In this document: piece after piece, positions 3,641 through 64,000 of the stretch
Layout of the letters: every line of letters begins with the position of its first letter
Position numbering within the stretch: position 1 is the first letter of the stretch
DNA from: Sipunculus nudus
Taxonomy: Eukaryota > Annelida > Sipuncula > Golfingiida > Sipunculidae
Direction: 5' to 3'
Length of the DNA stretch: 64,000 nt
Assembly (NCBI GenBank): GCA_026874595.1
Contig: CM049314.1
Location: 57,956,300-58,020,299, forward strand
Notes under the pieces: generated by a model
Told to the model about the DNA's origin: nothing
The model's input: the letters and a program-made list of their open reading frames with translations, nothing else
Database searches by the model: none
Made by a program: the position numbers and the translations under genes

Positions 3641-3642
3641 AG
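3628..3642 (+). promoter_or_regulatory. Splice acceptor before copy 1 coding exon
   Basis: The pyrimidine tract and AG (ttttctctgtttcag) stand 13 nt before the ATG at 3656. The same arrangement occurs at copies 3 and 4 but not copy 2, so the gene is inferred to have a spliced 5' untranslated exon. Confidence 0.65.
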
Positions 3643-3655
3643 TTTTAAAAGAGCG

Positions 3656-5305
3656 ATGGACCAGAAGAGCTACATTAATAGTCCATCATCATTTCCCCTC
3701 ATGTATACAACATGGCCGGAACTGTTAGATGAACGTGTCAAGGAAAACCCAAACAAGGTAGCGCTAAAGATTTACACAGAGGATATGAATTCCGATTCGC
3801 TAACATACGCCGAACTCCAGCAGAGATCCTTGGCGGTTGCTACTGTACTCCGACGCTCGGTGCCTGAAATGGAATATGAGGACACGGTAGGCATAATCGG
3901 TGCTAACACGTGCGAACTGCTAATAACCATACATGCAGTTTTCGCTCTAGGCGCTGTGATTGTGTTTCTTCCACATCATGCTAAAACAGCTAAAGACCTA
4001 CGTCCCTTCCTGCAAACAACACAGTGTAAATTATTGGTTTTCCAGCATGGTAGTTTGGATTCCTCCACATTGGGTCCATTAGAGGAACAGGGAACCCGAC
4101 TAGTTCGTTATGGATGCAATGGTGAGGAGGGCATCAATGGGATTAGATCCCTCGGCAAACTTCTGGAAAATGTGACTTCATCGGAAGTGAATGATACGAA
4201 GAAATTGAAAAATGAAATTCACTCCGATTTGGCAGCCACAGTGTTTTTTACTTCAGGGAGCACTGGCGTTCCTAAAGCTGTTACTTACTCACATTTCCAG
4301 CTGATTAACAATGTCCATATTTTCGGAAAACAACTGAAGCTTACGCATAACGATATTTTCTTCAACGACAGGGCCATTGTCCATATTGCGTCATTCGTAT
4401 GCATACATTGGTTTCTGGTATCAGGCCTGTGCTCCGTCTGTCTGGACACTCATGTCACAAGAACGGACATAAAGACAATATTTGAAATCACTAAAAGAGA
4501 AAATTGCACCGTTTCCCTGGCGTTTGGTTATGTTCTCTTCGATATGCTAAACGCCGAAAAATTAGCAAAGCAATACCTTAGTTCCCTAAGGCTTGTCATC
4601 ACAGCGGGGCAGACGCTGAACGAACGATTAGCATCAGAATTCCGACGGGTGCTGCCAGATATTTGGCTGGTTAATGGGTTTGGGTCAACAGAAATAGGAT
4701 ACACTCTGATGAATCAGGAACGATTGGAGGAGCGGGAAGACGGCTTCATAGGGCCGCCCCTGCCGTACTATGAAATGAAAATTGTTGGAGATCATGGTGA
4801 AACATTACGACTTGGCGAAATTGGCGAACTGCATATAAGAGGCCTTTTAATGGCGATGGGGTATATGCGTGGAGACAACCTACAGGATCTGACGTCACGG
4901 GAGGGGTGGTTTGCCACCGGTGACATGGCCGTGTTGAACGGTAGCGGTCATATCAAGATCGTTGGCAGATGCGCGGACATAATTAAACGTGCTGCGATTA
5001 AAATATATCCAACAGAAGTTGAAAACGTTATTTCTGAACATCCTGAAATCAGTGCTGTCCAAGTGTTTGGCGTCCCCGACGAGCGACTCGGAGAAGAGAT
5101 CTATGCATGCGTGATTCTGAAGCAGGGCAGCACGATGAATGAGGCGGATTTGTTGGATTGGTCTGCTGGAAGATTCAAAGATTCCAAAGTTGGAGATAAT
5201 AGGGCCCCGAAGTTTGTGGAAGTATTTGGAGACTTTCCACGCCTTCCTTCTGGAAAGGTTTTCCGAAAAGGACTGAAGGCAGAAATCCTTGGGCGTATGG
5301 GCTAG
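3656..5305 (+). CDS. Acyl-CoA synthetase, ANL superfamily (ACSF2-like), copy 1
   Basis: Predicted 549-aa adenylate-forming enzyme that would activate a carboxylic (probably fatty) acid with ATP and load it on CoA. All core motifs are visible: P-loop TSGSTGVPK (199-207), A5 GFGSTE (341-346), A7 TGD (421-423), hinge/A8 GR.ADIIKRA.IKIYPTEVE (437-456, hinge Asp441), and A10 LPSGKVFRK with the catalytic-type Lys534. Order and spacing fit a complete enzyme. Human ACSF2 is longer because of a mitochondrial presequence; no presequence, signal peptide or C-terminal SKL is seen, so a cytosolic location is inferred. The first ATG lies 13 nt after a splice acceptor and the coding region is one exon. Residue 447, normally Gly in A8, is Ala. 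It is closest to copy 4. The substrate cannot be read from sequence; 4CL/luciferase-like activity is an alternative. Confidence 0.93.
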   Translation: MDQKSYINSPSSFPLMYTTWPELLDERVKENPNKVALKIYTEDMNSDSLTYAELQQRSLAVATVLRRSVPEMEYEDTVGIIGANTCELLITIHAVFALGAVIVFLPHHAKTAKDLRPFLQTTQCKLLVFQHGSLDSSTLGPLEEQGTRLVRYGCNGEEGINGIRSLGKLLENVTSSEVNDTKKLKNEIHSDLAATVFFTSGSTGVPKAVTYSHFQLINNVHIFGKQLKLTHNDIFFNDRAIVHIASFVCIHWFLVSGLCSVCLDTHVTRTDIKTIFEITKRENCTVSLAFGYVLFDMLNAEKLAKQYLSSLRLVITAGQTLNERLASEFRRVLPDIWLVNGFGSTEIGYTLMNQERLEEREDGFIGPPLPYYEMKIVGDHGETLRLGEIGELHIRGLLMAMGYMRGDNLQDLTSREGWFATGDMAVLNGSGHIKIVGRCADIIKRAAIKIYPTEVENVISEHPEISAVQVFGVPDERLGEEIYACVILKQGSTMNEADLLDWSAGRFKDSKVGDNRAPKFVEVFGDFPRLPSGKVFRKGLKAEILGRMG

Positions 5306-6985
5306 AACAGGTTCATATTAACATCTGACCTTTGCATTTAAGCAAAGAAAAGATATATTTTTAAATTACTAATATAATATCTGCAACATAAATATCACTG
5401 ATGATAAATGCGAGATGCTTTTCTTAATCACCTGTACATATCAGCTTATGCTATTATTTGTAAACAAATATTATTATATATTATCATGGTCAAAGGAAGC
5501 ATTTCATATTCTTTACATTTTTAGCGAACCTATTTGCTTTTTCGATGGTTTGTGGCTTTATCCTTCGTCTGAAGGTTTATAATTTCAAGTAATATACCGG
5601 TTGTCTGAAAGATTTAATGAAAGCGGTCAGCAGTTGATTCTGTGTAAAATGTAAAGATCGAACAAAATGGCCTTTAAAAATCCTTTAAAAAATACCTCAC
5701 ACTATATATATATTTTAAATGCTTACTGGATTGTAAATTTAAGGCCTAACCTAAACAACTAAGGCCATTGTGACTTACATTTTGCAAGTTACACCTGTTT
5801 TTGTGTGCTTTTAATACACAGATGTTTACACACTGTTCAAGTCAGCTGGGCGTCATTACTAATGGGTCACTTATTGTTTGGTTTGTTGAATGTCTGCTGC
5901 TATTAAATTCTGTGTTTTTGATTGAGCAAAGAACAGAGTGATTCATGTAAGTTTTTATTAAATCAGTGTTAGAAATAAAATTAGGAAGGTTCGTTAAAAA
6001 ATATTGTTTTATTTACCTTTGTATGTAATATCATACAAATTTCATGAAGATTTCGGAATATTCCTCCTCTTCCATGACAAACTGACAGCCTTGTAATCCG
6101 ACATAAATACGAGGACTATCAAATTATGACCATATATGCAAAAAAATCTGCATATAAACCTTACTTGCTTGATAGCTACACTATTACCTAAATTAATGTA
6201 GGATGCATTATGTGAAGAGGATAAAGTAAAAAAAATCATCTGGACCTGAGAATTTAAAATACGACGCCTATCGAGATTAAATAAAAAAGATAAAGGCTAC
6301 ACCAAGCATAGCGCCATATCGGCCCTTTGACATTACGACCAGATTGAGTGGGCTTACTAGCCCAAATACCATTGCCTACCGAGTCGGGTTGTCACGGCTA
6401 CACAAAGCATTAATTGTTCTACTGTTTCTGGGAACAAAAATATGGTGCGAGCGGGAATTTTGAAAGTTTACAAGGAAAATTTTTAAGATTCACTTTATTT
6501 CCCGAGTTTTATTTGCAGAGTGGAAATAAACTATTGTATAATAATAATAATACACGAGGCGGACTATTGCACCTTAACCTCATAACAATATATATAGTGT
6601 GATAATTAAGCAAGATAATAAAAAAAACACAGACAAAATTCTGAGAAAAAAGTCCTTTACCTTGACTGTCACCTTATGATTCATTACCTTATATTGTTTT
6701 ATATTGACCTGATTGCCAAGTCATGGCTGTTAGTGTGCCGACCAAGCCAGCATTTAGGCCTCTTACTGTAATTTGCTAGTGATAAAAATGTGGTTAATGT
6801 CGAGTCATGCTACTCACATCCAACGGGTCATGAACACTTGATGGATTTTTTTTTATTTGGGGGGGGGGCAGGGTCAAGTCATTAATACATTCACAAAACG
6901 ACTCCTCCGCTAACCGTTGTTTTGTGCAACCTTGGCCTTCCTGTACTTTTCCGTTGCAGGGGTGGATCCAGGATTATTGAAATAT
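5306..6985. repeat. Downstream flank B of copy 1, proximal part
   Basis: Non-coding AT-rich sequence collinear with 26819-30440, 44682-48990 and 55512-57600 behind the other copies. Shared landmarks include 'ttttagcgaacctat', 'gtggctttatcc', 'cttgtaatccgacataaat' and 'gcaggggtggatccagg'. Relative to copies 2-4 it lacks most of the roughly 500-bp tandem repeat block, only a tail near 5735-5830 remaining, and the hAT-like MITE. No gene is seen. Confidence 0.75.
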
Positions 6986-7049
6986 GGGGGGTGGGGACAT
7001 ATATAGAGCATATATGATGGATCACTGCCACCATATCTTTCGTCAAAAA

Positions 7050-7424
7050 TATGTATTTATCGGCCGGTGCGCACCCTACGCTCTTCTAACGAAAGTCTTC
7101 TAATATTGCCTAAGTGCCGTACGAAAGTCGGTGAACGTTCTTTCAGTTATATTGCCCCTAAGATCTGGAATTCCCTTCCAGCTGAACTTAGAAAATCCCC
7201 CACTATCAATACTTTTAAGACAAATCTTAAAACATACCTATTTCTGCAGGCATTTTGTAATTAGCAACCTTTACCATACATGTAATCTCGGGTGTGTGTG
7301 GTTGAGTAGGTGTGTGTGTGTGTGTGTGTGAGTGTGCTTATATATTTATATATTGTGTAACTGATGTGTAAAAATGCAAGCGCTGTGAGTCTGATCTTGG
7401 AGTTCAGCGCTATATAAGTACTAT

Positions 7425-7450
<26 letters not shown>
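7050..7450 (+). mobile_element. 5'-truncated LINE 3' end (L2/CR1-like)
   Basis: The frame from 7067 to 7264 encodes the conserved extreme C-terminus of a non-LTR reverse transcriptase ORF (TKVGERSFSYIAPKIWNSLP, then TFKTNLKTYLF). The following untranslated part ends in 'agcgctatataag' and a run of ATT, the kind of 3' end found in L2/CR1-type LINEs. The segment is absent from the matching positions near 30430 and 48990, so it inserted after the flank duplications separated. RT and endonuclease domains are missing by 5' truncation. Confidence 0.8.
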
Positions 7451-7470
<20 letters not shown>

Positions 7471-7520
7471 TTTAAATATATATACTCCCCAAGAGTGATA
7501 TATATATATATATATATATT

Positions 7521-7551
<31 letters not shown>

Positions 7552-7555
7552 ATTT
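7444..7555. repeat. (TA)n microsatellite cluster
   Basis: Alternating TA runs broken by a short spacer; no coding potential. Confidence 0.95.
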
Positions 7556-7992
7556 AACGTAAACGGCGGAATTCATTGAAGGGAAATCATTTAGCTACAG
7601 AAATGTTTATATCTGAATCCATCATTGGTATATATCCAAATTAATTATTCTTCTGAAAATACAAATAGATATCAGCATGGCACAGACACACGCTTATAGC
7701 CCGGTGATTCTTTGTTTCTTTTTAAACTTTTGTGCTTAAATTGATTCGGGGGACTTTTATCTTAGCTGACTGAAAGTCATATGAGCTACAGTGATCACTC
7801 TTTGTCCGTCGTCCATTGGGCCATCCGGCCATCCGGCCGTCGGTCCGTTAACGGGGCTAAGTTCGTGACCGCTGGACCTAGAATCTTCTCACTCAACATC
7901 CCGGGAGGTCCATGAAAGATCTCCTAGCAAACCTGAAGTCCAGTCGTTCTCGCCCGCGGAGGAAAGACTTCATTCCCGCATATCATTTCTAC

Positions 7993-8254: not shown

Positions 8255-9887
8255 AGCTAAAAGAATCCGACTTCCCAATGCAGCGCTGGAGAAAAATGGT
8301 TGGACACTGCTAATCAATGATAACCTTGGTCCATTGATCCAAAAGTCTGACCAACTACATCTTAATTAGAAAGGCACACAGGTCTTTCGTTCAAATATAT
8401 GTATTGAAATCAAAATTGCAACCTCACTTAAAAATTTTCACACGCAAGCCGTAATAGAATTGACATGAACTGTACCCCTTGCAACCTGAACAACTTACCC
8501 TATCAAATAATTGACAGTTACATTCCTGTTGGTCACAATGAACCGCCTATCTGCTCGCAGAAAACTGGAACTTCTATTAGACACTGTTACAAAGTATCAA
8601 CAATCAACATGGCCTTACTATAATCCACTTAAATATAAGAAGTCTTCCCCCTTAATTTGATGAACTATCGCTCCTACTTAAGGTTTATACAGTCCATGTA
8701 GCTTGTCTCTCTAGGACTTATATACGATATACTGTTGGGTAAACTAAAACAATATGGCGTGTTATATAAGCAGTTCGTCCGATTCCATAACCATAATTCC
8801 GCATTGAGGTCCGTTAATACTGGTGTACCACAAGGCACGGTACTCGGACCTATTCTGCTTTTATTATACCATAACGACTTGCCTGTTTATATAACAGACG
8901 CTAAATGTTCAATTTATGCTGACGACATCACTCTATACGCAGACGTTGAGGAATTCTCTCACCTTGGCCTCATAATTGATTCACATCTCCCATGGAAATC
9001 TTACACTTCTGCTGGTTTAAAAAAGTTATGTTGCAAAAAAGGGCTATTACACAGACAAAGCAAATATCTGCCACCAAAGGTTCTACTCACAATATATCAT
9101 GGTTTCCTTCAGCCGACATTAGACTTTGGCTTAACTGTATGGGGCAGCTGTCCGAGCATCTTCCGTGCCGCTATCCAACGTATTCAGTGTCGGGTGGCAA
9201 GGAATATAACAAGAAGCTATAACCCGTCACAAAGTAGTCTGGAATTAATCAAAGAGATAGTTTGATGACAGTCGAGCAGCGATACCTTTTATCTGTTGTG
9301 ACTTATAAATGCATAAATGGTTTAGCCCCTGCGTATCTATGTGATAAATTCGCTCTGGCTAAAGACATTCATCATCATTCCACACGCTCAACCAATAACA
9401 ATAACTGTATCCTTCCCAAACCACGGATTGAATCTTTCAAAGCTGCTTTATTCTATGCAGGCAGTATCCTAGTGAATGCCCTTCCCCTGGACATTAAATG
9501 CGCCGCTAATTCGCAGAGTTTTTTAATAGCTACCACGTGCGTACTTTTCTAGTCTAACAGCGGTTTCTTAGTTTTGGCACTATACGAGATTGTTTAAGTT
9601 AGAATATTCGTTCTTACCACTCTTAGTACGAATATCTCCATGATAATCTATTTATTTTAAAGTATAATCTGTCATTTTGTAATAGTGTTATTGTCTTAGT
9701 AAGTCTTTCATATTCGTATTGTAATTTGTACTTTAATTCTATTTCATGGTCATATTTTGTTGTTTAAAAATTTCTTGTACTTTATATATGTAACAGGGCC
9801 CTGCTTACAAGAGAAGTGTTCTTCTGGTGCAGGCTACCCTGCATGTTATTGTAATAAATCTATTACTTAATAAATAAATAATCCTTA
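8255..9887 (+). mobile_element. Degenerate LINE with reverse transcriptase, inserted in flank B of copy 1
   Basis: A 1.6-kb insertion relative to copy 2, where flanking sequences meet near 31075-31095. Frame 8735-9265 carries RT palm signatures GVPQGTVLGPILLLLYHNDL and SIYADDITLYA (YADD at 8915-8926), then jumps, apparently by internal deletion, to the thumb/connection region (HLGLIIDSHLPWKSY). A one-frame shift leads into 9262-9552, which holds a Jockey/CR1-type C-terminus (YKCINGLAPAYL). The 3' end is 'taataaatctatt' plus TAAA repeats at 9850-9887. The endonuclease is missing. It is non-functional. Confidence 0.85.
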
Positions 9888-25167: not shown

Positions 25168-26818
25168 ATGAACCTGAAGAGCTACATCAATTATCCATCA
25201 TCAGTTCCTCTCCTGTATACAACATGACCGGAACTGTTAGATGATCATTTCAAGAAAAACCCCAACAAGGTGGCGCTGAAGATTTACACACAAGATATGA
25301 ATTTCGATTCGCTGACATACGCCGAACTCCAGCAGAAATCCCTGGAGGTTGCTACTGTTCTCCGACGCTTGGTGCCTGGAATGAAATATGGGGACATGGT
25401 AGGCATTATCGGTGCTAACACGTGCAAACTGCTGATAAACATACATGCAGTATTCGCTCTAGGCGCGGTGATTGTGTCTATTCCACATTATGTTAAAACA
25501 GCTAAAGACCTACGTCCCTTCCTGCAAACAACACAGTGTAAAATATTGGTTTTCCAGCACGGTAGTTTGGATTCCTCCACATTGGGTCCAATAGAGGAGC
25601 AGGGTACCAGGCTAATTCGTTATGGAGATAATGGTGAGGAGGGCATCAATGGGATTAGATCCCTCCGCAAACTTCTGGAAGATGTGACTTCATCATATGT
25701 GAATGATACTAAGAAGTTGAAAAATGAAATTTGCTCCGATTTGGCAGCCGCAGTATTTTTTACCTTATGGGAGTACTGGCGTGCCTAAAGCTGTCACTTA
25801 CTCACATTTCCAGCTGATTAACAATGTCAATGTTTTCGGAAAACAACTGAAGCTTACGCAAAACGATATTTTCTTCATCGACAGGGCCATTGTCCATATT
25901 GCGCCATTCCTATGCATACATTGGTTTCTGGTTCCAGGCCTGTGCTCTGTCTTTCTGGACACTCATCTCACAAAAACCGACATAAAGACAATATTTAAAA
26001 TCATTAAAAGAGAAAATTGCACCGTTTCTCTGGCGTTTGGTTACGTTCTCTTCGATATGCTAAACGCCGAAAAATTAACAAAGCAATACCTTAGTTGCCT
26101 AAGGCTTGTCATCACATCGGGGCAGACGTTGAACGAAAGAATAGCATCAGAGTTACGACGGGTGCTACCAGATATTTTTCTGGTTAATGGGTTTGGGTCG
26201 ACAGAAACAGGATGGACCCTGATGAATCAGGAACGATTGGAGGAACAGGAAGACGGCTTCATAGGGCCGCCCCTGCCGTACTATGAAATCAAAATTGTTG
26301 GAGATCATGGTGAGACATTACGACTTGGCGAAATTGGCGAACTGTATATAAGAGGCCTTTTAATTGCGATGGGGTATATGCATGGAGACAGCCTACAGGA
26401 TCTGAAGTCACGGGAGGGGTGGTTTGCCACCGGTGATATGGCCGTGTTGAACGCTGGCGGTCATATAAAGATCGAAGGCAGATGCATCGAAATAATCAAA
26501 CGTGCTGGGATTAAAATATATCCAGCAGAAGTTGAAAATGTAATTTGTGAACATTCTGAAATCAGTGCTGTCCAAGTGTTTGGCGTCCCCGACGAACGCC
26601 TAGGAGAAGAGATCTACGCATGTGTGATTCTGAAGCAGGGCAGCACGATGAAGGAAGCGGATTTGTTGGAATGGTTTGTTGAAAGATTCAAAGATTCCAA
26701 AATTGGAGATTACAGGGCCCCTAAGTATGTGGAACTATTTGATGATTTTCCACGCCTTCCTTCTGGAAAGGTATTCCTAAAAGAACTTAAGGCAGAAATC
26801 CTTGGGCGTATGGGCTAG
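25168..26818 (+). pseudogene. Acyl-CoA synthetase copy 2, pseudogene
   Basis: Same gene as copies 1, 3 and 4, starting MNLKSYIN. Codon 20 (Trp in the others) is TGA at 25225-25227. A one-base insertion at about 25762-25769 turns the P-loop TSGSTG into an out-of-frame TLWEYW. The remaining frame (from 25724 on) is fully open to the usual stop and keeps VPK, GFGSTETG, TGD, GRCIEIIKRAGIKIYPAEVE and PSGK. The A10 Arg537 is Leu. The upstream splice acceptor is also lost. Everything else is intact, so inactivation looks recent. It is closest to copy 3. Two separate ORFs (25270-25788 and 25724-26818) are halves of one gene. A sequencing error could explain one lesion but hardly all three. Confidence 0.92.
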
Positions 26819-33729: not shown

Positions 33730-36700
33730 AAATTTGACCCCTGAATTTTAATTTCACAGTTGGGATAGATATTCCATTTAATTTCTTCATATTGTTCTTG
33801 TTTACGTTTAATGTTCCTATTCCATATAGATTCGTGTTATTTGGGTTTAACGCCATTCGCGAGTTTTTCTGTAAATTGCTCTCTTTGTCTAAAGCATAAT
33901 CTGATATCTGTTACCTATCTCATGAACAAAGTTACATCATCAGCATTCATTGCAACTTTAACATTGTTTACCAAGTAATAAGTCAACTGTAGTTAAATAC
34001 CTTTTATTCCAGTTGCCTGTCTGATTTTAATTGCCATCAGTTCCTGGCCAAGAACAAAAACCAGGGGAGAAAACGGACACCCCTCTCTGACCCCAGACTG
34101 AACTTGAAACATTTGAGAAAGCCAGACTTTGAGTTGTATACAGTATCACTGCCATTAATAAAACTGACACCAAATGTATTAACTGCTAACCGTAACCGAA
34201 TATCTTCATTATCTCTAGGATCTACTCGTTGTTAATCGAATGAAAGGCGCTTTAATATCTAGCGTTATTACAGCCCAAAAAATATTGTCTTTGTTTGCGT
34301 AATTTACGATGTCATCTATTTGTCTGATTATAGTGACTATGTTGCAACATCTAATAAAACCCATCTGGTCTGAATTTACTTTATCACTGTTTACGGACTG
34401 CAACCTCATAGCGAGCACCTTCCGCTGTAATTTATAATCGGTGTTGCATACACTAATAGGCCGCAAATTACACAATTCATCCTCTGGCAATGTTTCCCCA
34501 TTGTTCAGTAAAGTAACAACCCCCCTTTTGTTGTTGTGTGGATAACATTCCTGTTTTATATGCACAGTTAAAAGAATTGACAAGAAGTGATTTCACAGTT
34601 GGCCAAAAAAAAATGATTTAATAAATAAATAAAACATTTCCGTTGTAAGTCCACCTTATCCGTTATTTGGTTCGTTTTTCATTTTCCTTAAGGCACTTGC
34701 AACTTCAGCCGAGATATCGAGACCTTCACATTCTCCTTTTTATTCTTCATTAAGTCTAGGGATAAACATACCATCTTTAAATTAATTAATCTTAGTTGGC
34801 ATGCATTCATCTGAAAACCCTTGTTTGCGTCTTTATAGATCCCTGTAATAAGTTATTTGAGCATTTAAAATATCGGCCTGTTTTGTTAGCACATTACTAT
34901 ATGTAGTTTTGAGACTTGTTTTCGTTTTTCCTTGTTCCCTTGACTTCTCTAAACTAAGAAAATATTTCTTGCTTCTTTCCCCTTGCTCACACCATTTGGC
35001 CCTTGCTCTTGTTCGTATGCTATATATCAAGTTCCCGTTGGATCTGAATGAATTTATTTTGTATCAGTTTATGTCTCATGTCATAGTTTGCTTCTGTCTG
35101 TTAAAGTTTATTTAACAATATATCTTTCTTAGTTATATTGATTTACCACGACAATAAATCTATGTAATCTCTTTAATTTTGGCTTTACAACTTTCCCATA
35201 TGAATTGCCAGTTATTAAATTTTCAGAACGAAGGGACTCTTGTCTCTGTGTTTATATGTATTGTGACGATAGTGCCTCTGTGACGAGTAAGCTGTTAATA
35301 ACTTAATCCATAGTGCTTCGTTAGCGAAAACGTAGTCTATTCTCCTAGTAAGGAAAGGATTACTCCGACTCCATGTAAAAGCGCTTTTTATATCCATGCA
35401 TTACACGCCACACATAAATTAACAGGGAATTTTGCATCATGTCATTAAGGGCCCTGTCATCTCGTTTTCTGTGAACTTTGCCTGATACATTGTTAAGAGA
35501 GTTATTCCATTACTGAATTAAAATCTCCTCACACTGCGATAAATCAGTCAGAGTCCTGAGATGCTAAGGTATCCTGTATTCTACTGAAGACTTCTACCTT
35601 TTCCTTACTTGCACAGGGCGCATATATGTTAAATATTTTTTTCTCATCTGCGTATGTTTCTTGTAAGCAAGCGATATTTATTTTGTTGCTTTCGTTTCAT
35701 CAATAATTGTGTTTCTTCTTATTTTGTCCTCAAACCATGTATATTTAAACTTACAATTTTACAATTGAATTCGACGTATTTAAAAGTCCGTATACCTTTA
35801 ATGCAAAGTCTGTGGACAATCCGTACTAACAGGTCAGAGAAACGAAGCGTACCTCCTCTTGGCTGGCGAATCCTGCATCACATGTCGTTTTTGTTCTTGG
35901 TTGTCCACAGGGGAGAGAGCGTTGGCCTTACGTTTCTTGGAGTCTGAGCGGATGTCGGCGAGGTAGTTGGTAATGGCTTATTTTTCTTTACCGCTGAGCG
36001 TGATAATGATCTTGGGCGATTTTGGTCTGATTTTCCCCGTGTGTTTTCTGTTCCCTCTCTCTCTTCGAGGTTGGCGTTTGTCTTTGTATGTCTGTGTGTT
36101 AGCTACCTCAGTGTCTTGTGCCTGTATCTCGGGGTCTGGTTGCTGAGTCGGGTGGAATATGACTTCCCCCATTTCTAGTATCTCACATTCTGGGTCATCA
36201 GTCCTGTGTCCATCCTTTCGACAAGATTTACATTTTATAGGAGCGTCACATTCATGTTTGTATTGTCCCACGTTCAGAAAATGTCCACAGCTTTTATTTT
36301 TTCTCTTTTTTCTTCCATTACCTTTTGTGGTACACTTTGTGGCGTCGAAAATTCCCATTCGTATTTTCCTAGGGAGGCAATTATTTTGTTTAGATATATA
36401 TACAAATCGCTTTCCAGTTTTCCAACGTGGGAGCTGACCATTATGATAACGGTCACATTCACCATATATTTTTGATCTCAGTTGGTATCCTAAGTTTTCT
36501 TGCGTTCGCTTTATTTCGTCAGTGAAAACGAAAGTGGAATGGCTCCAATCTTAACGCGAGTGGTGGGGTTTTCTTCTGTTCCCTCGGAGTCCGTTTGTTG
36601 GCTTACAACATAGGGATTAACAGCATGAGGTATAATGGTGAGGCTCCTTAAATGTAAACCCTCTATAAGCAAGCGAGCCCTAGCGTCACTTGATTTTGGA

Positions 36701-43019: not shown

Positions 43020-43031
43020 TTTTAAAGAGCG

Positions 43032-44681
43032 ATGAACCAGAAGAGCTACATCAATAATCCACCATCGCTTCCTCTCCTTTATACAACATGGCCGGAACTG
43101 TTAGACGAACATGTCAAGAAACACCCCCATAAGGTGGCGCTGAAGATTTACACAGAAGATATGAATTCTGATTCGCTGACATACGCCGGACTCCAGCAGA
43201 AATCCATGGCGGTTGCTACTGTTCTCCGACGCTTGGTGCCTGAACTGAAATATGGGGACACGGTAGGCATTGTCGGTGCTAACTCGTGCGAACTGCTGAT
43301 AAACATACATGCAGTATTCGCTTTAGGCGCCGTGATTGTGTCTATTCCACATTATGTTAAAACAGCTAAAGACCTACGTCCCTTCCTGAAATCAACACAG
43401 TGTAAATTATTGGTTTTCCAGCACGGTTGTTTGGATTCCTCCACATTGGGTCCAATAGAGGAGCAGGGTACCAGACTAGTTCGTTATGGAGATAATGGTG
43501 AGGAGGACATCAATGGAATTAGATCCCTCAGCAAACTTCTGGAAGATGTGACTTCATCGGTCGTGAATGATACTAAGAAGTTGAAAAATGAAATTTGCCC
43601 CGATTTGGCAGCCGCAGTATTTTTTACTTCGGGGAGTACTGGCGTGCCTAAAGCTGTCATTTACTCACATTTCCAGCTGATTAACAATGTCAATGTTTTC
43701 GGAAAACAACTGAAGCTTACGCAAAACGATATATTCTTCAACGACAGGGCCATTGTCCATATCGCGCCATTCCAATGCATACATTGGTTTCTGGTTCCAG
43801 GCCTGTGCTCTGTCTGTCTGGACACTCATCTCACAAAAACCGACATAAAGACAATATTTAAAATCATAAAAAGAGAAAATTGCACCGTTTCTCTGGCGTT
43901 TGGTTATGTTCTCTACGATATGCTGAATGCCGAAAAATTAGCAAAGCAATACCTTAGTTCCCTAAGGCTTCTCATCACATCCGGGCATACGTTGAACGAA
44001 CGAATAGCATCAGAGTTCCGACGGATATTACCAGATATTTGGCTGGTTAATGCGTTTGGGTCAACAGAAATAGGATGCACTCTGATGAATCAGGAACGAT
44101 TGGAGGGACAGGAAGACGGCTTCATAGGGCCGCCCTTGCCGTACTATGAAATCAAAATTGTTGGAGATCATGGCGAGACATTACGACTTGGCGAAATTGG
44201 CGAGCTGTATATAAGAGGCCTTTTAATGGCGATGGGGTATATGCATGAAGAAAGCCTACAGGATCTGACGTCACGGGAGGGGTGGTTTGCCACCGGTGAC
44301 GTGGCCGTGATGAACGATAGCGGTCATATAAGGATCGTAGGGAGATACATCGACATAATCAAACGTGCTGGGATTAAAATATGTCCAGCAGAAGTTGAAA
44401 ATGTAATTTCTGAACATCCTGAAATCAGTGCTGTCCAGGTGTTTGGCGTCCCCGACGAGCGCCTAGGAGAAGAGATATACGCATGTGTGATTCTGAAGCA
44501 GGGCAGCACGATGAAGGAAGCGAATTTGTTGGAATGGTTTGCCGAAAGATTCAAAGATTCCAAAATTGGAGATTATAGGGCCCCTAAGTATGTGGAACTA
44601 TTTGAAGTCTTTCCACGCCTTCCTTCTGGAAAGGTATTCCGAAAAGAACTTAAGGCAGAAATCCTTGGGCGTATGGGCTAG
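43032..44681 (+). CDS. Acyl-CoA synthetase, ANL superfamily (ACSF2-like), copy 3
   Basis: Open 549-aa frame collinear with copy 1 without gaps. Motifs: TSGSTGVPK (199-207), FGSTE (342-346), TGD (421-423), GRYIDIIKRAGIKICPAEVE (437-456) and LPSGKVFRK with Lys534. The A8 glycine 447 is kept, but Gly341 before the A5 motif is Ala (NAFGSTE) and the A8 Tyr451, part of the usual IYP, is Cys. It shares with copy 2 SIPHYVKTAKD, GPIEEQG and LTKTDIKTIFKI, so these two are sister copies, as their C-type flanks also say. Predicted to make an acyl adenylate and then acyl-CoA, probably in the cytosol. The start is the first ATG after the conserved acceptor. Antisense ORFs inside it are shadows. Confidence 0.93.
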   Translation: MNQKSYINNPPSLPLLYTTWPELLDEHVKKHPHKVALKIYTEDMNSDSLTYAGLQQKSMAVATVLRRLVPELKYGDTVGIVGANSCELLINIHAVFALGAVIVSIPHYVKTAKDLRPFLKSTQCKLLVFQHGCLDSSTLGPIEEQGTRLVRYGDNGEEDINGIRSLSKLLEDVTSSVVNDTKKLKNEICPDLAAAVFFTSGSTGVPKAVIYSHFQLINNVNVFGKQLKLTQNDIFFNDRAIVHIAPFQCIHWFLVPGLCSVCLDTHLTKTDIKTIFKIIKRENCTVSLAFGYVLYDMLNAEKLAKQYLSSLRLLITSGHTLNERIASEFRRILPDIWLVNAFGSTEIGCTLMNQERLEGQEDGFIGPPLPYYEIKIVGDHGETLRLGEIGELYIRGLLMAMGYMHEESLQDLTSREGWFATGDVAVMNDSGHIRIVGRYIDIIKRAGIKICPAEVENVISEHPEISAVQVFGVPDERLGEEIYACVILKQGSTMKEANLLEWFAERFKDSKIGDYRAPKYVELFEVFPRLPSGKVFRKELKAEILGRMG

Positions 44682-51503: not shown

Positions 51504-53840
51504 TTATTTATTTTAAAAGGATTGTACAATTAGCTATTATAACTAGTACGTGGCATTCTCCCTGGCTCGAAAGTTGGCGCTCGGTAGTCGCTAAGGGTGG
51601 AGGAAACCGCAGTAACCCGAAGAAAACCACCGACCTTGGACTGGCCACTACAACCACCACTCGTAGCTAGCGGAGAAGGCCGAGCGTTTTACCACTAAGC
51701 TGTCTGTCAAGAAAAAAAATCACCTGCAGTGAATAGATGATATTAAATGCACTTTCACTCGAGGAACAAGCATATCGGCATACTAAGGGAAAATTTAAAC
51801 AGAAACTGCTCAGTACACTTAGGTTAGCCTTTTGTTTTACATTTGTGATATCAGCGAAAGGGAGTTAACTGCTAATATAACAAAATATTGTGATACAAAC
51901 TGGTGAAAATACTGTGCATTCTGACTGATATATTTTGCATATACTGTTGACCAGTGATTTATACTGTAATCATTGGTGTGCCATGTACATTAACCGTGTC
52001 TGTAGCCTGGAAAGCTAAAAGGCAAGCGTATTTTATAACTAATAGCAGATATGTTATGTTGTGCCGAAATGGGTTATTGATAAATAGCACCTCCCATCCT
52101 AATTGAAACAAAAACACAAACAAACGTGGTAATAGTTTGATGACAATCTATTTAATACGCCAGAGTTACAAATTCACTACAACCTAATTTTATTTCATAA
52201 CGCAGCAGCGCCCTAAAACATTAAAACCATTATAAAACATTAAAGTCCATCCGATGAGTAGAAAAGTGAACATAGCTTAAAAGGTTTCCATATTACATTG
52301 AAGAAAAAGAACGAAGTGTACCTGATACGTACATGGATCAAACGTCATAGGCGTGATTGTGCATTTTTCCTGTGGTCGCAGAATAATAGCCTATGTACCG
52401 TAGGTTCCGATCTGAGGGCTCATGAGCGAATTTGCTAGGTTAATACATGTACAAGTACAATTAACAACGGCCTCAGAACGTTAAAGCACATATATTTGAA
52501 TACAAGAAAAACAGGTTTTGCCCAATTATATATACACAAGTAGTGTTACTAATGTGGTGGGATGGGAGGGAAGCCAATCAAATGGCGCCTTCTCGCTCAC
52601 GCTGTGCACAAAAGCTACCTCAGTGGCTGACTGGCTTTTCATGGCATGCCATGGTCCAGTTGGTTCAGGCTTAAGCAATCTAGCAGAGGTTACATTTACC
52701 TTGGTTCCCTTTTTGGAAACTAAATTTATATTTATATACAGATACAGTAAACTCTAGCCTAACGACAATCTTGGTACAGGTAAAACCTCGAACCAACGAC
52801 CACTTTTCCATTATTTCTGTTTTACATATCTCTTAATTTAATTTTGGGATGCAGATGTTGTTGTCCTTAGTTGACCTAAACGAATACATGTATATCATGT
52901 ATATAAGGCCATTTTTAAAATTAGCGATAGACGGTGACGTCGACAGCTGTTATTATCAGGATGGTGATGCTTTAATCAAGTACACTGTACAAACATCTTC
53001 ATGGCCTAATTACCGTGGTATGTGATTTTGCATTTCTATGTACAAACAGCACGTGAAGTTAACGTTTTGTTGTCAGTGTCCTGTATCTGAGGGAACAGTG
53101 CAGTCGGGTATAAAATAGAAAATAGAAGAGATTTGTCTCCATAGGTAAAACTTTATTTATTACTTGGATATCATTTTGCTTTTATCATTCTTTGTGCTAA
53201 ATGTGTATTTGTCCAATGAGCACGAAAACCGGTGATCTTGAACTTGATCTGAAAAGTCACGTCACCCGAAACACAGGATTATTGTTAACCCCGTATTTTT
53301 TTAAGTACTTCTTATTTTTTTCTCGAATGGTGTACACCTTGATTTGAACCTAGAAGACGTATTGATCCGAAGACAGGTAAACTTGAACTTGATCGTCAAA
53401 ATCAAATTTGCGGAAATACAGAGATAACGATTTATTAATTTCCATATTCTTTTAAGTACTGCATATTTTCCCTTAAATTTTATATACAAATTTTATCAGC
53501 AAAGGTTCCGGAAAACTTTGAAAAAAATTGTTGCCTCGACCTGGCTTAGGGTTAATGTATGCTTCAGTTAAAGGGACCTTTTGTAAAAGGGGTTATGCCT
53601 ACATCTAGGAATACAACGGGATATTCGGTGCCAAATCTTTCTAGGGTTTAATCCCTGAAGATGAAATTACAAATCAAAATATTTCTAACAATATTTCGTA
53701 CTCTTCTTCAATAACAAGACAAAAATTGAGATGACGAATGAGATTGATATCTTTTCATATAAAAATACAGTCATTATCTTACAATTAAATTTGTGTATAC
53801 GGTGTATGCTGTGATGTAAAAACTATATTTTTATTTTCTA
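50391..53840 (+). repeat. Upstream flank A of copy 4
   Basis: Collinear with 1-3640. Differences: an extra segment of about 230 bp at 51208-51440 followed by a (TA)n run (51450-51500), and lack of the 2133-2637 segment. It carries the SINE-like repeat (51540-51720), the dead counterpart of the 46-nt exon (about 51831-51877) and the exon counterpart at about 52328-52470 with an in-frame TAG. The gene-proximal part from 52860 matches all four copies. Confidence 0.75.
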
Positions 53841-53848
53841 TGTTTCAG
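53832..53848 (+). promoter_or_regulatory. Splice acceptor before copy 4 coding exon
   Basis: 'attttctatgtttcag' ends at 53848, 13 nt ahead of the start codon, as in copy 1. Confidence 0.65.
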
Positions 53849-53861
53849 TTTTAAAAGAGCG

Positions 53862-55511
53862 ATGGACCATAAGAGCTACATCAATAATCAATCATCAGTT
53901 CCTCTCCTGTATACAACATGGCCAGAACTGTTAGATGAACGTGTCAAGGAAAACCCCCACAAGGTGGCGCTGAAGATTTACACAGAGGATATGAATTCCG
54001 ATTCGCTGACATACGCCGAACTACTGCAGAAATCTCTGGCGGTTGCTACTGTACACCGACGCTTGGTACCTGAACTGAAATATGGGGACACGGTAGGCAT
54101 TATCGGTGCGAACACGTGTGAACTACTGATAAACATTCATGCAGTATTCGCTCTAGGCGCGGTGATTGTGTTTATTCCTCATCATGCTCAAACAGCTAAA
54201 GACCTACGTCCCTTCTTGCAAACAACAAAGTGTAAATTATTGGTTTTTCAGCACGGTAGTTTGGATTCTTCCACATTGGGTCCACTAGAGGACCAGGGTA
54301 CCAGACTGGTTCGTTATGGAGACAATGGTGAAGAGGGAATCCATGGGATAAGATCCCTCAGCCGACTTCTGGAAAATGTGACTTCATTGGATGTGAATGA
54401 TACTAAAAAGTTGAAAAATGAAATTCACTCCGATTTTGCAGCCGCGGTATTTTTTACTTCGGGGAGCACTGGGGTACCAAAAGCTGTCACTTATTCGCAT
54501 TTCCAGCTGATTAACAATGTCCATGTTTTCGGAAAACAACTGAAGCTTACGCAAAACGATATTTTCTTCAACGACAGGGCCATTGTCCATATTGCGCCAT
54601 TCCTATGCATACATTGGTTTCTGGTATCAGGCCTGTGTTCTGTCTGTTTGGACACTCATGTCACAAGAACCGACATAAAGACAATATTTGAAATCATTAA
54701 AAGAGAAAGTTGCACCATTTCTCTGGCGTTTGGTTATGTTCTCTTTGATATGCTAAACGCCGAAGAATTAGCAAAGCGATACCTTGGTTCCCTAAGGCTT
54801 GTCATCACAGCGGGGCAGACGTTGAACGAACGAATAGCATCAGAATTCCGACATGTGCTACCAGACATTTGGCTGGTTAATGGGTTTGGGTCAACAGAAA
54901 TAGGATACACTCTGATGAATCAGGACTTATTGGAGGAGCACGAAGACGGATTCATAGGGTCACCCCTGCCGTACTATGAAATGAAAATTGTTGGAGATCA
55001 TGGTGAAACATTACGTCTTGGCGAAATTGGCGAACTGTATATTAGAAGCCTTTTAATGGCCAGTGGGTATATGCGTGGAGACAGCTTTCGGGATCTGACG
55101 TCACGGGAGGGGTGGTTTGCGACCGGTGATATGGCTGTATTGAACGGTAGAGGTCATATCAAGATCGTAGGCAGATGCGCTGACATAATCAAACGTGCTG
55201 ACATTAAAATATATCCAGCAGAAGTTGAAAACGTTATTTCTGAGCATCCTGAAATCAGTGCTGTCCAGGTGTTTGGCGTCCCCGACGAGCGACTAGGAGA
55301 AGAGATCTATGCATGCGTGATTCTGAAGCAGGGCAGTACGATAAAGGAGGCGGATTTGTTGAAATGGTTTGCTAGAAAATTCAAAGATTCCAAAGCTGGA
55401 GATTATAGGGCCCCGAAGTTTGTGGAACTATTTGAAGACTTTCCACGCCTTCCTTCTGGAAAGGTATTCCGAAAAGAACTGAAGGCAGAAATCCTTGGGC
55501 GTTTGGGCTAG
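53862..55511 (+). CDS. Acyl-CoA synthetase, ANL superfamily (ACSF2-like), copy 4
   Basis: Open 549-aa frame, gap-free against copy 1. P-loop TSGSTGVPK, NGFGSTEIG, FATGD and LPSGKVFRK with Lys534 are all present. Deviations from the family: A8 position 447 is Asp (RADIKIYP) where Gly is usual; position 396 in the GEL.IRG motif is Ser instead of Gly; and GPPLP reads GSPLP. It shares HHAQTAKD, VTRTDIKTIFEI and ITAGQTLNER with copy 1, matching their common A-type flanks. It is probably expressed through a spliced leader exon. Whether the substituted A8 loop still supports thioester formation cannot be told from sequence. Confidence 0.92.
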   Translation: MDHKSYINNQSSVPLLYTTWPELLDERVKENPHKVALKIYTEDMNSDSLTYAELLQKSLAVATVHRRLVPELKYGDTVGIIGANTCELLINIHAVFALGAVIVFIPHHAQTAKDLRPFLQTTKCKLLVFQHGSLDSSTLGPLEDQGTRLVRYGDNGEEGIHGIRSLSRLLENVTSLDVNDTKKLKNEIHSDFAAAVFFTSGSTGVPKAVTYSHFQLINNVHVFGKQLKLTQNDIFFNDRAIVHIAPFLCIHWFLVSGLCSVCLDTHVTRTDIKTIFEIIKRESCTISLAFGYVLFDMLNAEELAKRYLGSLRLVITAGQTLNERIASEFRHVLPDIWLVNGFGSTEIGYTLMNQDLLEEHEDGFIGSPLPYYEMKIVGDHGETLRLGEIGELYIRSLLMASGYMRGDSFRDLTSREGWFATGDMAVLNGRGHIKIVGRCADIIKRADIKIYPAEVENVISEHPEISAVQVFGVPDERLGEEIYACVILKQGSTIKEADLLKWFARKFKDSKAGDYRAPKFVELFEDFPRLPSGKVFRKELKAEILGRLG

Positions 55512-58280: not shown

Positions 58281-58390
58281 ACAATGAACCATTGAATACC
58301 TAAACCTGGTTTAGAAGTAATATGTCAGGTTAATTATGTTTCACTATGTTTAGATTTGAACTTTCGTTGGATTTTTGTGGAGATTATGAA

Positions 58391-58595
58391 AACTATACCT
58401 TTTTGTAAACCTTATACTATAGACAATCAGAAAAACAATGATTCTATTTGCCTTGCGTCCTATATTGCCGCCATCTTGGATTTTACAAAATGGCTGCTGT
58501 GAAAAATGTTTTTTGTTAATATCTCAGCTTCTAATTAACCTAGAGCTTTTATTTTGACAGCTACACTACCATGTTCAAGGCCAAGAAATCCAATA
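58391..58595 (+). repeat. Left terminal inverted repeat
   Basis: Matches the reverse complement of 63807-63994 in collinear blocks: 'aactatac' (58391-58398), 'aaaacaatg' (58432-58440), 'atttgcc' (58446-58452), 'gtgaaaaa' (58499-58506), and 'atctcagcttctaattaacctag' with one mismatch (58521-58543, against 63859-63881). It continues more weakly through 'tccaat' near 58590. A 16-bp extra block interrupts it. Confidence 0.8.
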
Positions 58596-61500
58596 CTCGT
58601 AGTTGCAGATGGGTAGAGGCATTTGTTACAGCAGTTCAAAGAAATACTAAATTCATAAAAACACTTGGTCATTAGGCCGTACTGAGCACGAACCACAAGG
58701 ACATGATAATCTAGTGGTGTGATTATTGAAATAGGCTAGTATTATGTATGTGTAACAGTTTACTGTACCCTTTATGAAAGTTGGCGGTGAGTGTATTATT
58801 ATTATTTTTTTGGAGGCTCTAAGCATGAGTGACAAACCACAAGCTGCTAAAGGAGCTACTTGTCAAGGTCAAGAGACTATCAACAGGAAAGTATGTATGC
58901 TGTGCCAGTCTGATGCTGAAGGGTTGGTGCAACATCGCCGTCAAGACTCCTACCAGCGTGTGCTGGACATAATATAGGGAGAGGGTCAGTATGCATGAAG
59001 ACAACTATGTTGAGCTCCAACGATGACTGCAAAGCTGTACAAAGAACACATTCTGTACACATCAGGCAGTGTATCATCGTAGTTGCTATGCAAATGCAAC
59101 TAATAAAGACCAAACCCAGCGTGCCCGAGACCGTCATGCACATGTATTAGCTACTGGCTACCACACTGCCAAGAAACGTGGACAGAAAAGAGGGAGCACT
59201 GCAATGGGTGAATCAGGTTAATCAACATCTGGCTCTTTAACACCATCCACACGGTCCTGTACATGTTCGTTGGATAAGAAACAATGTTTCTTTTGTCAGA
59301 AAGATGATGGTGAACTGCTCTATCAGGTAAGAACAGTCAAAGCTGTGAAATCTCTTTAAAGAAGTTGTTGAAAGATCCAATAATGACAAACTGAAAACAA
59401 GACTGAACACATGCATTGCACTAGGGAATGCGCATTCAATTGATGTTCGGTACCACAAAACCTGTTGGACAAAGCATTTTTTTCCATGGACAGCAAGAAA
59501 CGAGCACCATTTGAAGCAGAAAAGGCCGCCAAGATCCCTTGCTACAGCATGCAAATCTGATCGAGCTGATCAACTTCATTGATGTCCAAACACAGAACCA
59601 AGCATACCTACCTATGGAAGATATCGAAACGACATATGTTAATATGCTTGGCCCAAAAGGCTTGGAAAACCTACATTCAATAGAAAGTGGTTGAAAGAAA
59701 AGATCTGCAATGTCTTGCCACACTTTAAGTCCTGCCTTTAAAAATCGAAGGAAATCAGCTGTTCTCTATTCCCCAGGTGAATGTGAGGAAAGCATGGTCA
59801 ATACTGCGATGGAAAGTCATGGTGAAGAGAACAACATGCAGACAATCTACAAGGCAGCAGAGGTATTGAGAAAAAGCATTGCAAACTTTACCAAATTAGC
59901 CACTGATACAAACACCATATGGTCAACAGTGACATCCAGGACGTTCCAGCTGAACTATATACCCTAATCCGCTGGATCATGATAAGACCTGCTGACAGCA
60001 TGGAAACTCAAAGTAGGACCAAAGTTGTTGACAGAGCAGCAGTCACAGTGAGCCAGAACATCATGTATGGATTCAAATCCAACCGACAGGTCAAGTACAG
60101 GCCAAGAAGAGAATCAGCAGCGTTCAGGCCACCTCATGCACGAGAAAACACACAGGTCCTGGGACTGGCTCTTATTGTTCATCGCGACACCCGCAACAAG
60201 ATTCTGTTGGATCTGCTCAGTGCACATGATTATTGTGTACCGTATTGCCGTACCCTACTAATTGAAACAGCTCTGGCCAATGCTGTTGTAAAAAACATCC
60301 GAGAGTTCTGAGGTCTGCATGTACCACCTTTCTTGAAGAAGGGTGCCTTTGTGTTCTTCGCAGTAGATAACATAGACCATTAGGAGGACACTGCTGATGA
60401 GAAAGGAACCATCCATGGAACGATTACTGGTGTATACCAGAAGGCAGAGATACCTAATGAACCAGTTGCACCAACCTTGAAGATTTGCGATGCCCAGAGT
60501 CTAACTGTCACTCCATACCGTGTAGATATGCTGCGCTGTGACAAGTCAAAACCACTGCTTGCCAAGAAGACAAACCACTTCATCACGAGTAAGAGAGTCT
60601 CAGGATCCTACCAGCTGGCACAACTAGGAAAGATTGTTGCCACTGTTTTATCCAGAATGGAAGCAGGGGAAGCATCAAGCAGTATTCCAGGCTGGGCAGG
60701 ATAAACCTGACTGCTGTCTGACAGCAAGCCGCTCACCCAGGTCGGAGCCCTACCACTACTCCTAGAAGTAGCACACGGGTGGTCAACCCTGCTGACTATG
60801 ATCTTTCAAGCAAGTCAACTGAGAAAGCTGTTTGTTTGTGAAGATCACCACATTGTAATTTCATTTGACATGTCTCTCTATGAGAAGGTGGTCCAGCTGC
60901 TAGATCCAAGATCTCACCTGATAAGCACAGTTGTGCCACGACTGGGAGAGCCATATGTTGTCATGGCTGTCATTCCCGCTCTTGGTGCCTCCATTGAGAA
61001 CTCCTGTATCGATGATGCATGGATAGAAGCTAATGTCTATGGGTCTGCAACAACAAGGCAAATCCTGAAGTGTACCCATTACAAGTGTGCTCTTCGTACC
61101 TATTCATATGCAGCTCTCCATGAAATGGCACTGGAGGAGTTCATCAAGGTCATCCCACAACTGAAAGAGGTCAGTATGAAGGCCACAGAGGGAATTGTCC
61201 GCCTGTTCAGAGGGGAGCAAGGACACAAAAGTTGAGTCTGTGAAACAAGCAAACACCAGCCTATTTGAGGCCTTGACCACTGCTGATGTCATCACAGTTT
61301 TCCAAGAGTTGGAGAAATAGAGATCCAAGAGTGCAATGTTCAAGGCAATGATGAAAACCTACATCGAGTGGAAGCGATCCTGCTCTTAGTCGCTGCAACC
61401 CGAAATGCTGACCTGAAACTTCATCTTCAAGCGGAAGAGTAGTTGAGTAAGTTCTTCTTCGCATTAAACCGGATTAAATACAAGCAACTCTGGCCCAGAT

Positions 61501-62799
61501 GCATCACAGACATGTATGATCAGAGGACCAACCACCCTGAAACCTGGAAAGAGCTGCAAGCAGGCAACATTGCAGTCATGAAGAATGACATTCCCTCTGT
61601 ATCCATTGGGGCTGACCATGCATGCGAACATCTGAACATGCTAATAGAAAACTCATTCTGGACTTATCGGCATCTCAAACAATGCCAATGCTAGACAGAG
61701 GTTCTTTTTTATGTCACACCATAACTCTCCCGTACTGCAAAAGCGTTCAAGAGTCAGCTTGACTTAGAATCTGACAAAACAAGAGAGCATCATGACCTTG
61801 GGCCAAGTGCTGTCAAGAAGGAGCATGTTGTTATCGACCAGATCTAGGCAGCCCTAAGGAGAAATGGAAACACATTTGCTGCTGAAATTGACAAGCTGCA
61901 CAATGTGATCACTCATGCCTACATCCCTGATGAGTATGTACTAACGATCTTGAATGCTAAAAAGACTGGTCAAAAGCTGTATGAAGACTACGTGTCAGAG
62001 AGGATCAATGGAGTTGTCAGCCTGTGGGCACCAGTAATGAAGGAGAACAACAAAATGTTTATGTCTGCAAACAAGAAAGCCAGAGTTAATCTCCGAGACA
62101 AGACTGTGGATCTAAAGGTGACCAAGAACTTATACGGCAGACTGATGGTCCGGGCCAGGTCCAGCAGAGAAATCAACCAGAAAGATGTCATTGGGAACCA
62201 TAAATTCACTCTGACACCAAGAGCCCTTTTAGCTCCAGATGGTACAATCCTGCCATGCCTTGACAAATCGAAGTTGATCCACCTCGTCAACAAGTTAACA
62301 ACAGTAGAAACTCCATAGGAAGAACTGCAGCAAGAAGATGGGATCGACCCCACACCAGATGCTCAAAAAAGCAAGACAGCCCTGGTAGATGGAATGGTTC
62401 TCCTACTGAAGATGGCCAAGAAACCAGCAACCATAGTCACAGTCAAAGATCTGAGTAAATGCTTCATTTACCGGCTGATGTCCCTAACACGAGATTACGA
62501 TGAAATCCTCCTCGTGTTTGACACATACAGGGATGTTTCTCTGAAGAGTGAAACAAGGGATAAAAGACGGCAAGGAAGAGCACCAATCCAGTATCAGATC
62601 AGAGATGACACAAACATAAGACATATCTCAATTAGCAGGTTCCTTTCACATGACAAGACGAAGGCTGACCTGACCAACTATCTTGCTGCTAAGACTATAA
62701 GAGTACAACAACACATCACAGAAACTGGTCATCACCTCTTCTTCAGGGCATACCAAGAACAACAAAGAACTGCATTTCCAGGACAACAATCATGAAGAC

Positions 62800-63110
62800 A
62801 CACTGTTGATCTACCAGGCTTTCCTGGCATCACAGCGACACCCATCGGATGCACAGATGATTTTCTTCTCCCAAGACTCAGATGTCCTGGTGTTTCTCAA
62901 AACAAACTTTGGCCTTATGCTGAAGAATACGTCAATTTCCATGGCCTCTGGGGTTATAGGGATAAAGCCAATATGAAGAGCTTTAGGAACAGAGAGAGCA
63001 AAGGTTTTGCAAGGGTTCCATGCGCGTTCACAGGTGCTGACAACACTGTAAGATTCTTTCATATTGGCAAAGCAACATGGCTGCAAGTCTGCATGAAGGC
63101 AGACAGAGAT
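62800..63110 (+). pseudogene. XPG/PIN-like nuclease segment of the element protein
   Basis: In a frame shifted from the main one, 62800-62990 reads LLIYQAFLASQRHPSDAQMI then FFSQDSDVLVFLKTNF. The SQDSDVLV aspartates match the central acidic motif of FEN/PIN-fold nucleases. After a shift back, FTGADNTVRFFHIGKATW corresponds to the next acidic motif plus the 'GKG' loop seen in such proteins. Two frameshifts in 200 bp show this copy is inactive. The nuclease assignment is from motif resemblance only. Confidence 0.6.
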
Positions 63111-63479
63111 GTAATCAGTCCTCTGCAGATGCTTTCAGTAGAAACAGAAATGACCGAAACTATGTTGGCCACTCTTGCCAGCTTCGTCTGTGAAGCCTAC
63201 TCCCCCAAAGGTATCTACATCGAGGCCATCTCCGAAATGCGATGGCATCTCTTTTGCAAGCATATGGCAGAAAGTGATAAGCTAGCTCTTACCCTAGGCG
63301 CTCTGAGAAAACATGTCCTTAGAGTCCATATCCAAGCCAGGGTGTGGGGATAGGCCAGCATTGCTCTGCAGAATCCGCAGCTGGATCCCCTACGGAATTG
63401 CTACCACAAGGGGTCCGATGGTCAGCTGAAACCAACCATGTCAAATGCCCTTCTAACTCCCAAGGCCATCATTGAGATG

Positions 63480-63569
63480 GTTAGCTGTCAATGCAAAACA
63501 GACTGTTTATCTGTCAGATGTTCTTGTCGAAGAGAGAACTTATCCTGCACCGATCTTTGCCAGTATTGA
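63480..63569 (+). pseudogene. C-terminal CXC (tesmin/TSO1-type) cysteine motif
   Basis: After MV, the last residues read SCQCKTDCLSVRCSCRRENL then SCTDLC: C-x-C-x3-C-x4-C-x-C-x6-C-x3-C, as in zinc-binding, DNA-contacting CXC domains. The frame is the main one, separated from the upstream part by a single TAG at 63351-63353. Confidence 0.7.
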
Positions 63570-63806
63570 GAGTCAGAATGGTGAGGACACACTTGAACAA
63601 GTATGAAACTGATGATAACGATGGTGACATGTAAAGACTCCTTCGTTGTCTAAAAGAGTAAACCCATTTCTGTCGTGAGGAGCACGTTGGTTGTTAATGC
63701 ACCCTATGCCAGTGGAACGTTGATGTCTGATCAACTGTAGAACTGTAAAACGAATAATTTCAGTCAAACAGGTCTGTGGTTTAATCTAGCTGATTTATTT
63801 TGATAC

Positions 63807-63994
63807 CATTGGAGTCCTCGATCCTAAAAATGGTGATTTAGCTATCACAATCATATTTCTAGGTTATTTAGAAGCTGAGATGTTGAACAAAACCTTTTTC
63901 ACGGAAGCAATAAGATGGGGCCATATGTGTATCAGGGCAAATGGATACATTGTTTTTTAATTGCTTATACAATAAAATCCAAGAATGTATAGTT
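63807..63994 (-). repeat. Right terminal inverted repeat
   Basis: Inverted counterpart of 58391-58595: 'gtatagtt' (63987-63994), 'cattgtttttt' (63949-63959), 'ggcaaat' (63937-63943), 'ctaggttatttagaagctgagat' split as two blocks (63859-63881), and 'attgga' near 63810. The outer limit may extend past the window. Confidence 0.8.
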
Positions 63995-64000
63995 CTGATA

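Follow-up and report, generated by a model that had tools for sequence, protein, structure and literature searches.

A decayed, probably Academ-like DNA transposon of Sipunculus nudus with a predicted transposase-nuclease fusion

What kind of genetic unit is a decayed gene that lies alone between two long inverted repeats? The question is raised by a locus in the 1.43 Gb genome of Sipunculus nudus, at the right-hand edge of the 64,000-nucleotide stretch that we analysed (hereafter the window; bases 57956300-58020299 of contig C9). A first reading made from the letters alone (the sequence-only reading) had taken the repeats and the gene together for a transposon of an undescribed type. We consider the element, with a probability of about 0.85, to be a decayed autonomous cut-and-paste DNA transposon that is Academ-like, i.e., of the AcademX type that combines an Asp-Asp-Glu (DDE) transposase with a nuclease of the flap endonuclease (FEN)/XPG type. 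The proposal of a transposon unit is thereby retained: seven relatives with paired terminal inverted repeats (TIRs), 3-bp target-site duplications (TSDs) in all 12 relatives with both ends, a transposase-like model of the protein core and a FEN/XRN-like model of its nuclease part support the interpretation of the TIR-bounded unit as a DNA transposon and of the multicopy, unnamed proteins as its transposases.

Ends of the element and of its relatives

The ends were placed by TIR alignment, by comparison with a copy on contig C12 and by following the contig past 64000. The whole element measures 5,713 bp on the forward strand, from 58331 to 64000 and on to 64043 (position 1043 of L007), and the right end that had been sought beyond the window was thus found 43 bases outside it. 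The left TIR (58331..58593, forward strand, about 263 bp) begins with TAATTATGTTTCACTATG, which is diverged from the TAGTCAGTTTCACTATG that forms the left end of the C12 copy (TAGTCAG start); the right TIR (63809..64000, continuing to 64043, reverse strand, about 235 bp) begins with TAGTCAGTTTCACTATG when read inward. The sequence-only reading was right about a pair of long inverted repeats but set the ends 60 bp too far inward on the left and 49 bp on the right, and its TIR length of about 190-205 bp was too short. The pair itself is real: a repeat search of the window recovered collinear inverted blocks between both ends, and a local alignment of 270 bp from each end, with one of them reverse-complemented, scored 128, against maxima of 32 in 1,000 shuffles of two-base blocks and 29 in 1,000 random window pieces, on which grounds a chance inverted repeat was rejected.

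Parts of the focal element also occur on contigs C12, C6 and C4, in blocks that are 71-85% identical, and in all three places the TIR sequence recurs beside parts of the same gene; these close copies are incomplete and none gave both ends. A genome search with P0001, a homologue of the encoded protein (see below), returned at least 45 stretches, including many diverged relatives; 29 of 803 first-look candidates were scored, so that the copy numbers are lower bounds. Copies within a family are mostly 90-99% identical. In family F, the copies on C13 and C15 are 94-96% identical and their similarity stops at the TIR ends. A search of the genome with the TIR of this family gave 18 matches, of which 14 pair in opposite orientation into seven elements on six contigs with ends 6.2-6.8 kb apart, the remaining four being short and unpaired.

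TSDs were counted in elements with both ends from families A, B, E and F, with families C, D, G, H, I and J and single-end copies left out. The ends in these four families begin with TAGT, save for one terminal base in two elements (the 3' end of the family B element on C10 and the right end of the family F element on C9), which we treated as mutated when setting the boundaries by hand at the common TAGT. A perfect 3-bp TSD flanks 12 of 12 such relatives (one in family A, two each in B and E, seven in F), or 12 of 13 elements when the focal copy is included. Two of them, C13a and C13b, are identical in the left flank (20/20 bases) and, on the right, over the first 14 flanking bases, and were therefore counted once, leaving 11 independent insertions with the TSDs ATA, TAA, TTT, TTG, TAT, TAT, TAC, TCG, TAA, TCT and AAG. 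At other lengths the flanks agree in 5/11 (1 bp), 1/11 (2 bp) and 0/11 (every length from 4 to 15 bp); when flanks were mispaired, a 3-bp agreement arose in 4 of 110 cases.

The family F element on C15 (L041) contains an internal duplication of about 0.7 kb (6511-7195 and 7266-7949, 98% identical). Three copies that are more than 99% identical lie within 0.5 Mb on C10, at 68728359-68735240 (L016), 69122958-69128288 (L028) and 69201926-69208807 (L015); as their identity reaches the ends of the examined pieces, they may reflect segmental duplication rather than transposition. Beside the C6 copy, overlapping self-matches of 81-87% (L009, 5240-6640) suggest a tandem repeat array.

The decayed gene and the predicted domains of its product

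A single gene lies between the TIRs (58825..63634, forward strand), broken by in-frame stops and frame changes into 13 segments in three frames; it was joined up to 63566, and the last codons to 63634 were added by eye. As query we used the read-through of the broken transposase with X at stops (residues 356-1565). Among 7,991 scored candidates, 20 homologous proteins were found, with identities of 43-69% across 71-100% of the searched region; one further match, a toothfish protein, covers 7%. Complete homologues have about 1,600-1,650 residues. P0001 (1,614 residues) comes from a contig of 5,147 bases, and because some homologue contigs barely exceed the coding sequence the gene is very likely intronless, in keeping with the single intronless decayed gene of the sequence-only reading.

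The alignment of the 20 homologues (A1) displays two N-terminal CxxC...[YW]HxxC modules, a core of high conservation followed by a second conserved stretch, and a C-terminal run of CXC cysteines, and the zinc-module, PIN/XPG-like and CXC segments anticipated from the letters are all present in the focal gene. Its first CxxC...YHxxC module (58894..59086, forward strand) and its second (59285..59465, forward strand) each span a frame change; the patterns occur in 12/20 and 14/20 homologues, respectively, and the proteins that do not have them are mostly shortened at the N terminus. Profile searches recognised little of this architecture. At E<=1, the homologues matched 16 Pfam families, of which DUF6589 aligned with the core in 15 of the 20 proteins (best E 2e-5), its best score of 23.9 bits staying below the curated cut-off of 27. 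Two more distant same-genome relatives (L022 and L030) matched no informative Pfam family at E<=1, the A1 profile had no match among PDB sequences at E<=10, and tblastn confirmed no A1 relative among 25 viral-contig and 48 genome-contig stretches that carried the pattern.

The core is predicted to adopt an RNase-H-like DDE transposase fold, with strands and helices in the RNase-H order and a long helical stretch ahead of the last acidic residue. The proposed catalytic residues, all on the forward strand, are a first Asp at 60366..60368 (VDNxD motif, in a predicted strand; D520 in P0001), a second Asp at 60867..60869 (ISFDM; D687) and a Glu at 61626..61628 (DHACEHLN; E943, invariant in A1). The first is retained in 18/19 same-genome relatives that cover its site, the second and third in 19/19 and 19/20 of the relatives that cover theirs. 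The fold prediction that the sequence-only reading had called for yielded a transposase-like model of middling confidence, whose closest folds are, in order, the P element, hAT Hermes, ISCth4 and RAG1. With Foldseek, none of 173 matches to the core alone reached E<=0.001, the best being ISCth4 at 0.12 amid unrelated membrane proteins.

For the second conserved stretch (62370..63400, forward strand), the conservation pattern and a model built on the corresponding segment of P0001 predict a nuclease of the FEN/XPG/XRN fold, with acidic positions at 62388, 62520, about 62794, about 62875 and 63039; XPG_N matches the window piece weakly (E 0.094). The C-terminal CXC (tesmin/TSO1-like) motif at 63486..63566 (forward strand) was recognised from the sequence and its pattern is present in 19/20 homologues; the corresponding Pfam family TCR remains sub-threshold, with E 0.7 on the window piece and matches in 3/20 homologues (best 0.54). 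A FastTree phylogeny with 43 tips, built on the core and the nuclease segment, unites the focal protein with P0001 and P0002 with a support of 1.0, the order within this trio having a support of 0.24, and sets it far from the other same-genome families, with which it shares 20-30% identity.

Assignment to Academ and competing interpretations

Some lineages of Academ transposons encode a nuclease of the XPG type. A search of the literature available to us for Academ and XPG as whole words found no paper that contains both. In the passages available to us, Academ is listed among the known superfamilies (PMC9587614, PMC5753468) and placed with those that have DDD/E transposases (PMC9587614), to which the predicted DDE core corresponds. 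AcademX is described there as having TSDs of 3 or 4 bp and AcademH of 9 or 10 bp, a difference that is seemingly tied to the encoding of a nuclease or a helicase (PMC10045372), and the 3-bp TSDs of the relatives and the predicted nuclease agree with the former. Likewise, 100 curated bivalve Academ consensuses, from a work that reports an expansion in bivalves, have a mean length of 5,565 bp (PMC10294476), close to the 5,713 bp of the focal element. The passages of PMC10799480, PMC12210899 and PMC9004415 give no structural detail on the Academ nuclease. Nuclease, DDE core, TSD and length together lead to AcademX by published description; thus, the element probably belongs to a superfamily that is already described, filed by its description under Academ, and the claim of an undescribed transposon type is not supported.

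Several observations weigh against this assignment. A comparison of the flanks of the focal copy (GGT/AAT) at every length from 1 to 15 gave no match, so that the TSD sought for it was not found; the copy is highly diverged, which makes this understandable, and for the focal element the figure of 3 bp is taken from the relatives. With its stops, frame changes and missing TSD, this copy looks long dead. Further, the likeness to Academ is a likeness to published descriptions, the same-genome families are only about 20-30% identical to the focal protein, and the Academ passages at hand mention neither a CXC tail nor two CxxC..YHxxC modules. These latter points would favour an undescribed cut-and-paste superfamily of DDE, FEN nuclease and CXC parts, resembling AcademX only in TSD length and nuclease. 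We regard this as unlikely: nuclease, 3-bp TSD and a length of about 5.6 kb fit the Academ descriptions as far as the passages go, and novelty at the superfamily level would require the absence of homology. Slightly less improbable, if still doubtful, is the broader possibility that the FEN-bearing, CXC-tailed, TAGT-ended elements with 3-bp TSDs form either their own superfamily or an undescribed lineage that branches deeply next to Academ, in which a DDE transposase resembling those of P, hAT and RAG has a flap endonuclease built in as its partner.

Placement in KDZ, Zisupton or Kolobok is very improbable. Long cysteine-rich transposases do occur in KDZ; however, the 20 homologues matched no KDZ, Zisupton or Kolobok model among their 16 Pfam families at E<=1, an absence that is weak evidence. 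Zisupton makes TSDs of 8 bp and Kolobok duplicates TTAA, whereas the relatives have varied 3-bp TSDs, on which Kolobok was rejected. An older, unrelated inverted duplication around a host gene would account for the lack of a TSD at the focal copy, but is equally improbable given the joint recurrence of TIR and gene parts on C12, C6 and C4 and the relatives with the same TIR-bounded organisation and TSDs, which led us to reject a host gene.

Elsewhere, the window carries four tandem AMP-binding (acyl-CoA synthetase-like) genes on the forward strand (3614-5305, 25228-26818, 43026-44681 and 53820-55511), which are intronless open frames of 551-563 codons, apart from the second, which is split by a frame change. 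A reverse transcriptase fragment at 8702-9265 (forward strand; RVT_1, E 1.7e-8) is a retroelement remnant, and an open frame at 35978-36550 (reverse strand) has a cysteine-rich, zinc-knuckle-like pattern that appears gag-like by eye and no Pfam match at E<=0.001.

Proposed mechanism and comparison with known systems

For the Academ-like element, we envisage that the long TIRs would be recognised and bound by the zinc modules, possibly together with the CXC motif, and that the DDE core (D520, D687 and E943 in P0001) would cut at their TAGT ends and join them to a target cleaved with a stagger of 3 bp. The nuclease of FEN type that is fused to this core may trim 5' flaps or overhangs during excision, at the donor breaks or in gap repair after strand transfer; we give flap trimming even odds of being its task. 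The type of transposon is probably already known. What the termini and TSDs of the related copies add is that a class of unnamed long proteins with zinc modules, a FEN-like part and a CXC tail, of which this genome has many copies, is tied to transposons, and the role of a fused flap-type nuclease thereby becomes a testable question.

If the filing under Academ holds, AcademH belongs to the same superfamily as the focal element and differs from it, on the passages available, in having a helicase and a 9 or 10 bp TSD (PMC10045372) in place of a nuclease and the 3 bp of the relatives. TSDs of 9 and 10 bp were found in 0/11 relatives and are absent from the focal copy, and the 20 homologues, with matches to 16 Pfam families, hit no helicase model. 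Within the core, the sub-threshold similarity of 15/20 homologues to DUF6589 stands beside the likeness of the core model to the P element, hAT Hermes and RAG1. P and hAT transposons produce TSDs of 8 bp and Transib/RAG of 5 bp, unlike the relatives of the focal element with their 3 bp; an 8-bp TSD occurs in 0/11 relatives and not at the focal copy, which does not agree with a P element or hAT. The P element, hAT and RAG1/Transib transposases are not known to have a FEN nuclease. The C-terminal part of the element's protein resembles the FEN1, EXO1 and XRN nucleases in predicted fold and acidic constellation, and differs from them in that a transposase and a CXC tail are joined to it in one protein.

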